Below are positions 8,409 to 28,987 of a stretch of 52,055 nucleotides of DNA, one piece after another. The first letter of the stretch is position 1, and each line of letters starts with the position of its first letter. The stretch lies in contig NZ_JAUYSS010000026.1 of assembly GCF_030695525.1 (NCBI RefSeq), positions 1-52,055 of the forward strand. Reading direction: 5' to 3'. The position numbers were made by a program, and so were the translations under genes. Below the pieces are notes generated by a model that ran no database searches, was not told the DNA's origin, and was given only the letters and a program-made list of their open reading frames with translations. This stretch comes from Daejeonella sp. Its GTDB lineage: Bacteria; Bacteroidota; Bacteroidia; Sphingobacteriales; Sphingobacteriaceae.

Positions 8409-9110
8409 ATGCCTAATATCAGGGAATCAAAAGAACAATCAGAAGAGATGTCAAAGATCCTGAACGAAAGGCAAAGGCGAGGTTATGAAGAATTACTTCA
8501 GGGTAATCGGGATTGGGTTCAGAAAGAAATTGGAAAAGATCCCGATTATTTCAAAAAGCTGGCTGCAGGTCAGGAGCCGGATGTATTATGGATTGGTTGT
8601 TCTGATAGTCGTGTACCAGCGAATGAAGTTACAAATACAAGACCCGGGCAGGTCTTTGTACACAGAAATATTGCCAATGTTTGTGTGCATTCAGACATGA
8701 ATATGTTAAGTGTCCTTGATTATGCTGTCAACGTATTGAAAGTGAAACATGTGATCGTTTCAGGTCATTACGGATGCGGGGGTATTGCTGCTGCATTAAG
8801 TAATAAGCAATTCGGCCTTATCGATAACTGGCTCAGACATATTAAGGATGTTTATCGTTTACATAGTAATGAACTGGACAAGATTACAGATGAAGATGTC
8901 AAGCTGAACCGTTTGGTTGAATTAAATGTCATAGAGCAGGTTAATAATCTATGTACAACGACAATCGTTCAGAATGCCTGGCGTGAACGCGAAGATCTGG
9001 AGATTCATGGCTGGGTAATTGACCTAAGTTCAGGGCTGGTCAAGGATCTTCAGGTTAGCTCGAAATCAAGTGAAAATCTTGGAAATGTATTTAAGCTGGA
9101 TGAGTCATAA
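8409..9110 (+). CDS. can: Beta-class carbonic anhydrase (second copy, Can-like)
   Basis: A 233-aa beta-carbonic anhydrase with zinc ligands C64, H120 and C123 in IGCSDSRVPA and SGHYGCGGI, plus the D66-R68 dyad. The motif set (NTRPGQVFVHRNIANV, LIDNWLRHIKDVY, VQNAW) is that of the Escherichia coli Can-like type, unlike the copy at 6021. The start at 8409 gives a polar N-terminal extension; an internal ATG at 8448 (MSKILNERQ) would also fit the family. It is almost certainly translationally coupled to the SulP gene. Confidence 0.92.
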   Translation: MPNIRESKEQSEEMSKILNERQRRGYEELLQGNRDWVQKEIGKDPDYFKKLAAGQEPDVLWIGCSDSRVPANEVTNTRPGQVFVHRNIANVCVHSDMNMLSVLDYAVNVLKVKHVIVSGHYGCGGIAAALSNKQFGLIDNWLRHIKDVYRLHSNELDKITDEDVKLNRLVELNVIEQVNNLCTTTIVQNAWREREDLEIHGWVIDLSSGLVKDLQVSSKSSENLGNVFKLDES

Positions 9111-9155
9111 GTGAAGTAATATTTCATTTATATTATTTTGATTTCGACATAAGAA

Positions 9156-9658
9156 AGGTTAAAACCAGGCTATAATTGGTCAGATAAGGCTCTTGAGCCG
9201 AAATATTTGATTTTGGAAAGCAATACCTGCATGTTATAGGCTGGTTCAGCCCTTTCCTCCGGTTAGTTCCGGCAAGAAATCGCGTTCCCCTCTGGTCGGT
9301 GTTCTCACCGTACCAAGCACGATAAAATCAAGTGGTCGGTGATAACACCAACCACAGGGAAATTTCAAATTACGAATAGCCGGAATCTACCTCCTCCGGC
9401 AAGGTTTATTTAACCTGGTGCTGTATTTCATTGGGAAGGACAGCCCGGCAATAGGACCATTTGCCCTTTGAAATAAACCCGGGTGGCAGCTCTAGCTTTT
9501 TTGCACTACTGAATTTCATGATATCTATTAAATCTGCTGCAAAAAACTAGGGCAGAACACGGGATTGGCAGGGCCGAAGAGGTACAGACCCTGCTTTCCA
9601 AAACAAAGAAAATCTTCAATCTATACTTACCACAACAAGATTTTATATCGACCTTAGA
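9156..9658. repeat. Structured ~0.5 kb intergenic element, copy 1 (possible ncRNA or mobile element)
   Basis: This region is similar along its length to 28456-28987. Two long blocks are identical between the copies: 52 nt (9267-9318) and 31 nt (9333-9363). Further shared blocks are at 9388-9411 and 9420-9436. Folding by eye gives a perfect 12-bp closing helix (9211-9222 with 9592-9603) and a long hairpin (9286-9360, arms about 24 bp plus ACCA/TGGT). There is a smaller hairpin at 9380-9399, a copy-specific arm near 9490-9550 (CTAGCTTTTTTGCA with TGCAAAAAACTAG), and a GGCTC/GAGCC hairpin before the closing helix. A terminator-like pair AAAATCTT/AAGATTTT sits at 9609-9644. It lies between converging genes. 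The family is unknown to me. The strand is unproven; the T-run favours plus. Confidence 0.7.
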
Positions 9659-9707
9659 TTAAATTAATAAAGTAGCGAAATTCATATAATCGCGATCCCT
9701 GCCTTTT

Positions 9708-11342
9708 TTATTCCTTATCCAGAAATGGGTAACGATAATCCTTTGGAGGGTCAAATGTCTCTTTTATTGCTCTTGGGGATACCCATCTTAAGAGATTGAT
9801 CATTGAACCTGCTTTATCATTTGTTCCTGATCCTCTGGCACCGCCAAATGGTTGCTGTCCAACTACAGCCCCGGTACACTTATCATTTATATAAAAATTG
9901 CCGGCGGCATTTCTCAATACATGGGTAGCTTTAGCCAATGCATAGCGGTCTTGTGCTAAAACAGCGCCTGTTAGTGCATAAATGGAAGTATTATCAATTA
10001 TTTCAAGTGTTTTTTCAAAGTCCTTGTCTTCAAAAACATAAATCGTTAGAACCGGTCCGAATAATTCTTCACACATGGTCACATAATAAGGGTCTTTGGT
10101 TAATAAAACGGTCGGCTCAATGAAATAGCCTTTGGATTTATCATAATTTCCCCCTGCAATGATCTCGAGGTCTTTGTCATTCTTTGCCCTGTCAATATAT
10201 CCGCCTAGTTTATCAAATGATTTTTCATCGATCACAGCATTAATGAAATTGCCGAAATCTTCAGTAGGGCCTATTTTTAGGCTTGCCAGATCTCGCGTTA
10301 ATAATTCTTTTATTTTTGGCCAAACAGAGGCTGCAATGTATACCCTTGAAGCTGCGGAACATTTTTGACCCTGATACTCAAAGGCGCCCCGTAGGATCGC
10401 TGTACTTGAAGCTTCCATATCTGCAGAACCATGCACCAGAATGAAGTCTTTACCACCTGTCTCACCTACGATTCGCGGATAGGTTTTGTATTTATGGATA
10501 TTATTGCCAATAGTTTTCCAGATATCCTGAAATACCGCCGTAGATCCGGTGAAATGAATTCCTGCAAAATTTGGATGATTAAAGATCACTTCCCCGGCAT
10601 CCGGCCCTGAAACATAAACCAGATTGATTACTCCATCAGGTAATCCGGCTTCGCGGAAAATCTGCATCAAAACATTGGCAGAGTAGATCTGGGTGTTGGA
10701 CGGCTTCCAAACTACCACATTTCCCATCATGGCTGCAGAAGTAGGCAGGTTACCGGCTATGGCAGTAAAATTGAAAGGAGTTAATGCAAAAACAAAACCT
10801 TCGAGAGGTCTTTGCTCGAGGCGATTCCAGCTTCCGGAGGGCGACACCGGTGGCTGTTGCTCATAAATTTCGCTCATGTATTTAACATTGAAGCGTAAAA
10901 AATCGATGAGTTCGCATGCGGCATCAATCTCTGCCTGAAATGCATTTTTTGATTGCCCGAGCATGGTGGCTGCATTCAGTTTGTAACGGTAAGGTCCAGC
11001 AATCAGGTCGGCTGCTTTTAAAAATATAGCTGCACGCTGTTCCCAAGGCAGATTTTCCCAGTCAGATTTCGCTGCAAGCGCTGCATTGATTGCATCTGTA
11101 ACATGTTGTTTAGTACCCTGATTATAAGTGCCCAGCAAATGCTGATGATCGTGTGGCGGATTGATCTTTACTTTTTTATCAGTTCTGATCTCTTTGCCAC
11201 CAATATACATGGGTATTTCAATAAGCACTGACCGGGCTTCATTGAGTGCTTCTTTTAATAATTTACGTTCCTTGCTTCCCGGTGCATAATTCAATATAGG
11301 TTCATTTACCGGCTGAGGTACCTTGAAAAATCCTTTTAACAT
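9708..11342 (-). CDS. pruA: L-glutamate gamma-semialdehyde dehydrogenase (delta-1-pyrroline-5-carboxylate dehydrogenase)
   Basis: A 544-aa NAD-dependent aldehyde dehydrogenase that oxidises glutamate semialdehyde to glutamate in proline and arginine breakdown. The catalytic C328 (YQGQKCSAASR) and general base E294 (VGETGGKDF) are present, along with the P5CDH-typical TPFNFTAIAGNLP segment. I start at MLKGFFKVPQ (11342) because the open frame upstream to 11378 contains a promoter-like -7 element. No proline dehydrogenase gene is adjacent. It is convergent with the carbonic anhydrase operon across the structured repeat. Confidence 0.95.
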   Translation of the reverse strand: MLKGFFKVPQPVNEPILNYAPGSKERKLLKEALNEARSVLIEIPMYIGGKEIRTDKKVKINPPHDHQHLLGTYNQGTKQHVTDAINAALAAKSDWENLPWEQRAAIFLKAADLIAGPYRYKLNAATMLGQSKNAFQAEIDAACELIDFLRFNVKYMSEIYEQQPPVSPSGSWNRLEQRPLEGFVFALTPFNFTAIAGNLPTSAAMMGNVVVWKPSNTQIYSANVLMQIFREAGLPDGVINLVYVSGPDAGEVIFNHPNFAGIHFTGSTAVFQDIWKTIGNNIHKYKTYPRIVGETGGKDFILVHGSADMEASSTAILRGAFEYQGQKCSAASRVYIAASVWPKIKELLTRDLASLKIGPTEDFGNFINAVIDEKSFDKLGGYIDRAKNDKDLEIIAGGNYDKSKGYFIEPTVLLTKDPYYVTMCEELFGPVLTIYVFEDKDFEKTLEIIDNTSIYALTGAVLAQDRYALAKATHVLRNAAGNFYINDKCTGAVVGQQPFGGARGSGTNDKAGSMINLLRWVSPRAIKETFDPPKDYRYPFLDKE

Positions 11343-20885: not shown

Positions 20886-21416
20886 ATGAATTTAAGAGGA
20901 TTAGTATCCGTATCCGGTAAGCCGGGATTGTTTAAGCTGATTGGACAGAATAAATCTGGCTTTATCCTGGAAACATTGGATGAGCAGAAGAATAAGATCG
21001 TAGTGAACATCAGTACTGCAAAGATGGCCTCTTTAGAAGATATTACCGTTTTTGGTGATACGGCTGATTTGAAACTGAGCGATATTTTCCTGAAAATGAA
21101 GGACAGCAAAAGTCTGCCTGATGCAAAAACCGCTGATGGCAATGCTTTGCGTACTTTCTTTACAGAAGTAGCTCCTGATCACGATCAGGAACGTGTTTAT
21201 GCATCTGATATGAAGAAGATTATCAATTGGTTCACTATTATTAAGGATCTGCCTTTATTCAGTGAAGAGGCTCCGGAGCCAATTGCAGATGGCTCTGTGG
21301 TACCTGCTGCTACTGATGCTCCGCCTGTTAAAAAGCCTGAGCCAGTTAAGGAGAAGCCTAAAGCTACCAAAGCTGCAGGAAAGAGTGCAACACGATTGTC
21401 GCAGAAATCGAAGTAG
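20886..21416 (+). CDS. DUF5606 domain protein
   Basis: A 176-aa protein. Residues 1-140 match the DUF5606 pattern as I remember it (MNLRGLVSVSGKPGLFKLI, KIVVNISTAKMASLEDITVF, LSDIFLKM). The tail (about 140-176) is Pro/Lys/Ala-rich and disordered. The family is near-universal in Bacteroidota, small and cytosolic, and its function is unknown. It begins 6 nt after the heptamer repeat of site C. Confidence 0.85.
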   Translation: MNLRGLVSVSGKPGLFKLIGQNKSGFILETLDEQKNKIVVNISTAKMASLEDITVFGDTADLKLSDIFLKMKDSKSLPDAKTADGNALRTFFTEVAPDHDQERVYASDMKKIINWFTIIKDLPLFSEEAPEPIADGSVVPAATDAPPVKKPEPVKEKPKATKAAGKSATRLSQKSK

Positions 21417-21540
21417 GGGGCAGGAGGTCTGAGGTCTGAGGTCTGAAGTCTGAGGTCTGAAGTCTGAGGTCTGAAGTCTGAGGTTTGAAGTAGGAGGTCT
21501 GAAGTCTGAGGTTTGAAGTAGGAGGTTTGAAGTAGGAGTG
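21417..21540. repeat. Heptanucleotide tandem repeat GAGGTCT/GAAGTCT (site D)
   Basis: About 120 bp of 7-nt units alternate between GAGGTCT, GAAGTCT, GAGGTTT and GAAGTAG. They start at the stop codon of the DUF5606 gene. This is a GA-rich strand only; no complementary CT-rich arm is present. It lies between convergent gene ends. Confidence 0.7.
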
Positions 21541-21581
21541 GACTAGAGATAAGCCATTAAGGTTATCTGGACTCTATCTCC

Positions 21582-28272: not shown

Positions 28273-28455
28273 CTTATTTGCTTGATTTTAATTTATTTCC
28301 AATTCTAATTGCGAGCGAAGTTACATAAAACGACCTTAAAAATGAATAGATATGGGTATTGAAAACGCAAAAATTATGTATTATCTGAAAAATAATACAC
28401 AATTTCCCAAAAATGAAGGTGGAGAGAAGCTTAGAATAACTTGAGTTCGATTTAA

Positions 28456-28987
28456 GGAAGGGTAAAATAGTACGGTTATAATATATCAGATTAAGCTCTG
28501 GAGCAACAATAATTTGTTTTTTGAAAGCAAAACCTGTGTGTTAGAGGTCAGTTCAGCCCTTTCCTACAGAGTATTTCCGGCAAGAAATCGCGTTCCCCTC
28601 TGGTCGGTGTTCTCACCGTACCAAGCCCGATCATATCATTGGTCGGTGATAACACCAACCACAGGGAAATAGCCGGAAGATACCTCCTCCGGCAAGGTTT
28701 ATTTTACCCGGAGCTGTATTTCATTGGGACGGGCATCCCGGCGCTGTGGCTGCGCGCGCAATGTCATTTTTTAAGGATTACGATCCTGACGAAGGTCGGG
28801 ATCTCCTCCATTTTTTAAAAAAATACATTGTCATTCTGGCGAAGGCCAGAACCTCCTGCCCCTTAAATAATGACATTGGGTGCGCGTGAGCTAGAATAAC
28901 CAAAAAGAAACAGACCCTGCTTTCTAAAATAAGAGAAAATCATTCAATCTAAAACAGCCCGGCAAGATTTTATTTCGAACTCAGGTT
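28456..28987. repeat. Structured ~0.5 kb intergenic element, copy 2 (possible ncRNA or mobile element)
   Basis: This is the partner of 9156-9658. Identical blocks lie at 28575-28626 (52 nt), 28640-28670 (31 nt), 28681-28704 and 28713-28729. The closing helix is kept: GAAAGCA (28523-28529) with TGCTTTC (28918-28924), one mismatch, then TTTT/AAAA. The upstream hairpin is GCTC/GAGC (GGCTC/GAGCC in copy 1), and the 3' pair AAAATC/GATTTT remains. It lacks 14 nt between the long hairpin and the CCGGA/TCCGG hairpin. Its variable arm is replaced by an unrelated palindromic insertion (28751-28886). It lies upstream of aconitase and downstream of OsmC. Confidence 0.7.
28751..28886. repeat. Palindromic insertion inside copy 2
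   Basis: About 135 bp are bounded by imperfect inverted repeats that share CAATGTCATT (28759-28768) and AATGACATTG (28869-28878) within longer GC-rich ends (TGCGCG/TGCGCG-like). Inside are two REP-like hairpins of the form CTGRCGAAGGYCRG followed by ATCTCC/ACCTCC, at about 28786-28806 and 28836-28856. The TGTCATTCTGGCGAAGG unit looks like a dispersed repeat that has inserted into the variable arm. Confidence 0.6.

Follow-up and report, generated by a model that had tools for sequence, protein, structure and literature searches.

A MITE-like element family of Daejeonella carrying an inverted pair of Flavo-1-related modules

MITEs of the IS4 family are geneless, multicopy units with inverted ends, a duplication of about 9 bp and sites that lack the element, and the element described here shares all of these features. 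In most MITEs the ends are no more variable between copies than the interior. HEARO, ROOL and GOLLD are large ornate RNAs, which our element resembles at first sight in its size and structure; it differs from them in consisting of two small modules and not one large fold, and the window, by which we mean the whole stretch of 52,055 nucleotides analysed, gave zero matches to any Rfam 15 family at gathering score.

The interior of the element resembles Flavo-1 (RF01705), which Weinberg et al. (2010; PMC2864571) class as probably an RNA and as not cis-regulatory. Excerpts of two further papers place Flavo-1 hits sense or antisense to transcripts, with many outside them and no functional clue (PMC9723704), and count Flavo-1 among the most abundant sRNA families without giving a function (PMC9029176); the literature surveyed, with subscription papers mostly outside its scope, yielded no statement that Flavo-1 is mobile. 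Shared with Flavo-1 are a lower helix, an asymmetric internal loop, a long upper hairpin and many copies per genome, whereas the covariance model of our module (R1) extends over an additional 3' tail, and the modules here are paired, tails outward, within transposon-like ends. A hairpin nested in the element can be compared with the REP/BIME-RAYT systems, with which it has in common short palindromes, a GTGG-like tag, an occurrence as singles and inverted pairs, and a RAYT gene with these repeats on both sides, as far as these systems are characterized in the passages used from PMC3733652; according to the same passages the usual tag is GTAG, GTGG is found in one family, and CGTC, not GTAG, is the repeat type in connection with which the Bacteroidetes are mentioned. 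The REP pair here differs in that it recurs in one slot of another mobile element.

A dispersed family with inverted ends

A first-pass annotation of the window had described two related stretches, 9156-9658 and 28456-28987, that share blocks of 52, 31, 24 and 17 identical nucleotides in the same order. Both are present between open reading frames with a similarity far beyond chance, and the blocks can be read off the alignment, the 31-nt block at 100% identity. The positions were roughly right; as borders, the inverted ends give about 9137-9658 and 28440-28985. The features of the two copies are as follows.

9128-9136: candidate left 9-bp target duplication of copy 1, TTATATTAT, 7 of 9 positions equal to the right one
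9137-9658, plus strand: element copy 1, a MITE-like unit between inverted ends, with the ends taken from aligned copies
9137-9153, plus strand: left inverted end of copy 1, degenerate CCTGAGTTCGATATAAG
9208-9415, minus strand: Flavo-1-like module of copy 1, R1 37.7 bits, E 2.8e-6, apical loop split by the REP pair
9288-9361, no strand assigned: nested 74-nt REP pair (BIME-like) of copy 1, an exact gap against genome G019
9467-9606, plus strand: intact Flavo-1-like module of copy 1, R1 151.7 bits, E 2.8e-33
9642-9658, minus strand: right inverted end of copy 1
9659-9667: candidate right 9-bp target duplication of copy 1, TTAAATTAA, with the 9-bp register from 53 copies
28440-28985, plus strand: element copy 2, flanks TTAGAATAA / TTAGAACAG, 7 of 9 positions equal
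28515-28708, minus strand: module of copy 2, its loop holding a REP pair, R1 33.0 bits, E 3.5e-5
28594-28668, no strand assigned: nested REP pair of copy 2, from HMM matches; repeat families D4 and D5
28813-28932, plus strand: module of copy 2, R1 38.7 bits, E 1.6e-6

A search of the genome that contains the window (G000; 73 contigs, 4.2 Mb, Sphingobacteriaceae-like), as the first-pass annotation had proposed, returned 63 pieces matching copy 1, the best besides copy 1 itself with an E-value of 9e-152. Among 60 related genomes, 15 have matches at E <= 0.001; those with E < 1e-40 are found in 11 genomes, our own included, all of them among the 20 genomes of the same genus. The gene adjoining the element has its best named matches in a Sphingobacteriaceae MAG (85%) and in Pedobacter (79-81%, best three). 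Profiles run against 51 merged stretches revealed the 5' block in at least 46 copies, with 40 matches to the middle block and 26 to the 3' block, all lower bounds for our own genome, in which the covariance model lists additional modules, among others on contigs C42, C44 and C66. The middle block could be assigned in 38 and the 3' block in 23 of the 46 copies, and many copies are incomplete. The stretches had been described as unlike any gene, and this holds across the family: 69 hairpin-free copies gave no coding signal in six frames, with a median longest open run of 39-52 codons and a single longest run of 146.

The consensus of the inverted ends from the aligned copies is CCTGAGTTCGATATAA and its complement, and the ends are more variable between copies than the interior. 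A target-duplication signal was detected only at length 9 (z 3.4 for the flank match against shuffled partners, in the 53 copies that have both ends and include a few orthologues of each other); at the ten other lengths within 2-12 the flank match ranges from z -0.4 to 1.4. The 9-bp target site has the consensus TTAANTTAA, and the duplication is exact (9/9) in copies L027 and L277. At the site of copy 1, the element is present in G019 and absent from the orthologous position in G009 and G004, the kind of element-free site that the earlier annotation had named as support for a mobile element. The dispersed copies, inverted ends, target site duplication and element-free orthologous sites are those of a MITE. 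We call the element MITE-like because of its degenerate inverted ends, the 9-bp duplication signal and the orthologous sites without it, and by this anatomy the family is a predicted non-autonomous transposon. In G007, G011 and G017 (loci L224, L225 and L226), the intergenic region of copy 1 holds an element that is turned the other way round with respect to the adjacent gene, and because of this orientation it is probably a separate insertion. The window also contains a 14-bp tandem repeat, GAGGTCTGAAGTCT, at 21396-21549.

Two inverted modules and their kinship with Flavo-1

Inside the element, one structured module of about 135 nt is present twice, in inverted orientation and with the tails facing outward. 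Model R1 was built from 44 3' modules, of which 41 are same-genus copies, one (L123) belongs to a less closely related species within the genus and two (L124, L136) come from another genus; copy 1 is not among these sequences, and the 41 were picked by eye as less decayed from a set of 64 copies, itself 64 of the 66 distinct 3' modules. Both strands carry a module in 18 of the 40 loci of our own genome scanned with R1 (E <= 0.01), the minus modules scoring 49.5-64 bits where hairpin-free and 33-44 bits with a REP pair, and on these matches the minus-strand module is a second, divergent copy of the plus-strand module. The plus module of copy 2 has retained its tail, with its hairpin swapped for a different array of repeats (about 28742-28890). 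This second family of nested repeats, with GTGCGCGCGCAATGTCATTATTTAAG-like ends and sometimes GTCATTCYRGCGAAGGCYRGAAYCTCC inside, displaces the plus-module hairpin at a near-identical junction; it was seen at 28742-28890 of the window and in L016, L017, L011 and L039, with a similar array in L048. Across the taxonomic family, the module is detected with R1 in 34 of 121 genomes and 8 of 25 genera, with a per-genome maximum of at least 27. Modules of other genera are single or tandem, and common ends were rejected for them, as their flanks differ between copies (26 loci, compared by eye).

The first-pass annotation had proposed either structured RNAs or non-autonomous mobile elements, and both seem to apply together, with two modules on opposite strands in place of the one fold of about 390 nt that it had drawn. 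A single large 390-nt RNA was rejected, given that the long-range helix is poor in compensatory changes and is explained by the two inverted modules. The closing helix of that fold (TTTTGGAAAGC / GCTTTCTAAAA) does exist, because the tails of the inverted modules are complementary, but most of its pairs either do not vary or are broken, and it shows little covariation of its own.

For both elements of the window, the fold is better than that of every one of 100 dinucleotide-shuffled sequences (z -4.7 and -5.4). Covariation, which the earlier annotation had expected in an RNA, is found in the module helices and hardly in the closing helix, where compensatory changes are few. In the 64 copies it amounts to 0.200, compared with 0.086 shuffled (sd 0.008) and at most 0.052 slid; in the 44 sequences to 0.217, compared with 0.073 and at most 0.045; and in a set of 51 matches, taken from 40 loci in other species and genera and aligned to R1 itself, which favours the model, to 0.420, compared with 0.113 and at most 0.090, all against shuffles that ignore relatedness among sequences. 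Double changes affect seven pairs in the 64-copy set against 4.5 shuffled, a number reached by 19 of 500 shuffles, and 17 of 19 pairs in the 51-match set, in which the helices are short, the changes span genera and 53 of 500 shuffles attain as many pair types. With RNAalifold, the full element gave a single set of short helices and the module alignment zero pairs. The module also has conserved unpaired nucleotides and a conserved tail. The G-U wobble suggests which strand of the module would be the RNA: the 44-sequence set has 43 G-U and 6 A-C cells, with 31 of the 43 on a single pair, and the 51-match set has 7 and 4. No sigma-70-like promoter was found in 9100-9720; Bacteroidota promoters differ from sigma-70-like ones.

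Searched with RF01705, positions 9050-9750 gave no match even at E <= 10, and the modules of the window miss the gathering cut-off of 42 bits; matches to Hrs13 (E 5) and, in L025, to mir-286 (E 0.16) were attributed to chance. The relation to Flavo-1 appears through intermediates, in both search directions. RF01705 matches 6 of 13 R1-type loci with 25.5 (E 0.19) to 45.6 bits, the distant modules L399 (45.6) and L438 (42.8) lying above its gathering score, and R1 in turn matches 5 of 23 Flavo-1 loci with scores of 30.9-58.4 bits, four of these five holding an opposite-strand module 84-478 bases away. The module and Flavo-1 would thus belong to a common superfamily, without membership of the window modules in RF01705, and the earlier statement that no known RNA family fits is correct for the window itself but leaves out this more distant kin. 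Flavo-1 matches occur in 19 of the 20 genomes of the genus, 17 of which exceed the cut-off, and number 15 in our own genome. Two of the Flavo-1-like stretches there (L255, L258) gave no match to R1, and each adjoins one element-type end; element-type ends on both sides (first 11 bases, at most 2 mismatches, within about 800 bases) were found at 0 of 30 Flavo-1 loci. Genome G014 (3.7 Mb) has at least 142 Flavo-1 matches, the most among the 20. Three Flavo-1-like modules stand in direct tandem with a spacing of 283 bp in L429 (G118), and modules of mixed orientation are found in L427 (G124).

The nested REP pair and candidate transposases

The long central hairpin had been described as invariant, which it is not. 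It occupies its slot in 21 of the 46 copies and is also found outside the element, and at the copy 1 site of G019 the element is present with exactly 9288-9361 missing and one T instead; the slot occupancy and this exact gap led us to reject the hairpin as part of the element's fold. The 25 hairpin-less copies mostly have a spacer of about 18 nt in the slot (in two of them this portion of the block is gone), and the insertion junctions vary among the hairpin-bearing copies. Genome-wide, 60 pieces match the REP, with single halves as well as pairs outside the element. A RAYT gene flanked by these REPs, located via the repeats themselves, lies on contig C19 and matches NF047646 with 84.5 bits (cut-off 80); Pfam assigned no family to it. 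The RAYT genes matching PF01797 (L106-L111) were rejected as the REP partner, since they have no adjoining REPs and one weak tag match only. With its palindromic unit, its occurrence as singles and inverted pairs, and the flanking RAYT gene, the nested hairpin is, judged by sequence, a separate REP pair in a tolerant apical loop of the module, and the REP-flanked RAYT is its likely mobiliser.

The common ground between the element itself and the candidate ISs is restricted to the ends. Our own genome encodes two DDE genes (L308 and L317), and neither NF033590 nor an IS982-family transposase was found in its 73 contigs. It also contains a family of MITEs of about 200 bp, with element-like ends at six loci (e.g., L256, contig C55 of G000, 442-640). 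Five of these six correspond to an IS4-family IS of G009 cut to bp 1-34 and 1516-1679, with one shared breakpoint between 34 and 1516, and the sixth, compared from a sequence lacking the left end, matches the latter of these two parts. The IS encodes NF033590 (320 bits), which has matches in 3 of the 20 genomes of the genus, and its two ends show 5 and 4 mismatches in 16 against the consensus end of the element. Beyond the ends, the element has no homology to this one IS4 element tested; its interior, not IS-derived and better conserved than its ends, sets it apart from IS4-family MITEs.

The ends of two IS982 loci are closer to the element than those of the IS4 element. L306 and L307 (NF033520, 244 and 241 bits, cut-off 130) carry inverted C[CG]TGAGTTCG ends flanking the gene, with 4 and 3, and 3 and 4, mismatches in 16 to the end of the element. 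An inverted end-like pair around the gene was found at 3 of 23 DDE loci (the third being L322), compared with an average of 0.1 for shuffled ends. An IS982-family transposase as the mobiliser, with everything else in our explanation kept, would account for both observations, and we nevertheless consider it unlikely: IS982 matches are found in 3 of the 20 genus genomes, our own not among them, and the short MITEs with similar ends come from an IS4 element. Because of this derivation we prefer IS4 over IS982, and the ends of the element most likely point to an IS4-family transposase acting in trans. Since no such transposase was found in the 73 contigs of our own genome, present mobility there remains a proposal.

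Divergence, placement and alternative explanations

We compared orthologous elements in 14 comparisons at eight sites, of which six comparisons from four sites are clean (site 1; C32 with three, non-independent; C10a; C5, G009 against G019), the other eight being affected by nested inserts, missing parts or poor alignment. In the clean comparisons, hand sums give differences at 135/1716 positions (7.9%) of the interior, 55/753 (7.3%) of the ends and 138/1524 (9.1%) of the flanks, which may contain coding bases. When all 14 are pooled, the 5' interior differs at 87/1046 positions (8.3%), compared with 161/1013 (15.9%) in the 5' ends and 326/2433 (13.4%) in the flanks; the middle (231/1099, 21.0%) and the 3' part (199/1090, 18.3%) are faster, partly via inserts. 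Inserted copies thus appear mostly to drift, with the module maintained in the lineage of spreading copies, and some constraint may act on single copies. By simple open reading frame rules, 16 of 44 elements lie between convergent genes, 18 between tandem and 2 between divergent ones, with 8 unclear; as a circular genome has equal numbers of convergent and divergent gaps, this is a clear bias to gene ends, through tolerance or function.

The element is probably a MITE-like transposon with IS4/Tn5-type ends and, as cargo, a tails-outward pair of modules of the Flavo-1 superfamily. A trans-acting transposase, most likely of the IS4 family encountered in a sister genome, would insert the element at TTAANTTAA-like sites; it would land where the sequence is AT-rich and persist near gene ends, after which the inserted copy would largely drift, the module being preserved chiefly in the lineage of copies that spread. 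Since the module would be kept in that lineage, it probably serves the element and not the host. As folded RNA or as a single strand, and on either strand, it might cap or block transcripts entering the element, or aid its mobility. The REP pair would be a second, independent element, probably placed in the apical loop of the module by the RAYT transposase.

That the cell itself keeps the family, as an sRNA or a 3'-end element whose inverted ends are merely an RNA closing helix, would agree with an interior better conserved than the ends between copies, with the covariation of the module helices, with the preference for gene ends and with the slower pooled 5' interior, and the mixed pooled rates give this reading slightly more weight, and the transposon slightly less. 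We nevertheless regard it as very unlikely, in view of the six clean comparisons, in which the interior changes at about the rate of the ends and flanks, and of the orthologous sites without the element, the 9-bp duplications, the modules on both strands and the frequency of incomplete copies, with the 3' block assigned in only 23 of 46. Scarcely better placed, and also improbable, is an ordinary MITE whose hairpins are DNA palindromes and whose covariation stems from correction between the inverted arms and not from selection on RNA. The element is indeed hairpin-rich and inverted, and the G-U evidence for a strand is thin; such a palindrome would leave aside the conserved unpaired nucleotides and tail, the double changes in short helices across genera, and the kinship with Flavo-1, which was described independently as RNA.

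Our preferred reading, a transposon with paired modules as its cargo, hints that the abundant Flavo-1 family spreads as mobile DNA. We think it possible, if somewhat short of probable, that Flavo-1, instead of being a set of host regulators, provides the folding core for a superfamily of mobile structured modules, which would occur solo or as outward pairs and be captured by transposon ends, with the fold selected for spread as in structured-RNA parasites. A mobile superfamily of this kind would explain why Flavo-1 hits lie on either strand and outside transcripts, and would indicate which copies are worth testing; catalogues of Bacteroidota sRNAs may then include transposon fragments counted as genes. 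The element offers a tractable case of a nucleic-acid fold conserved inside a DNA transposon, and the finding provides a lead on the nature of Flavo-1.
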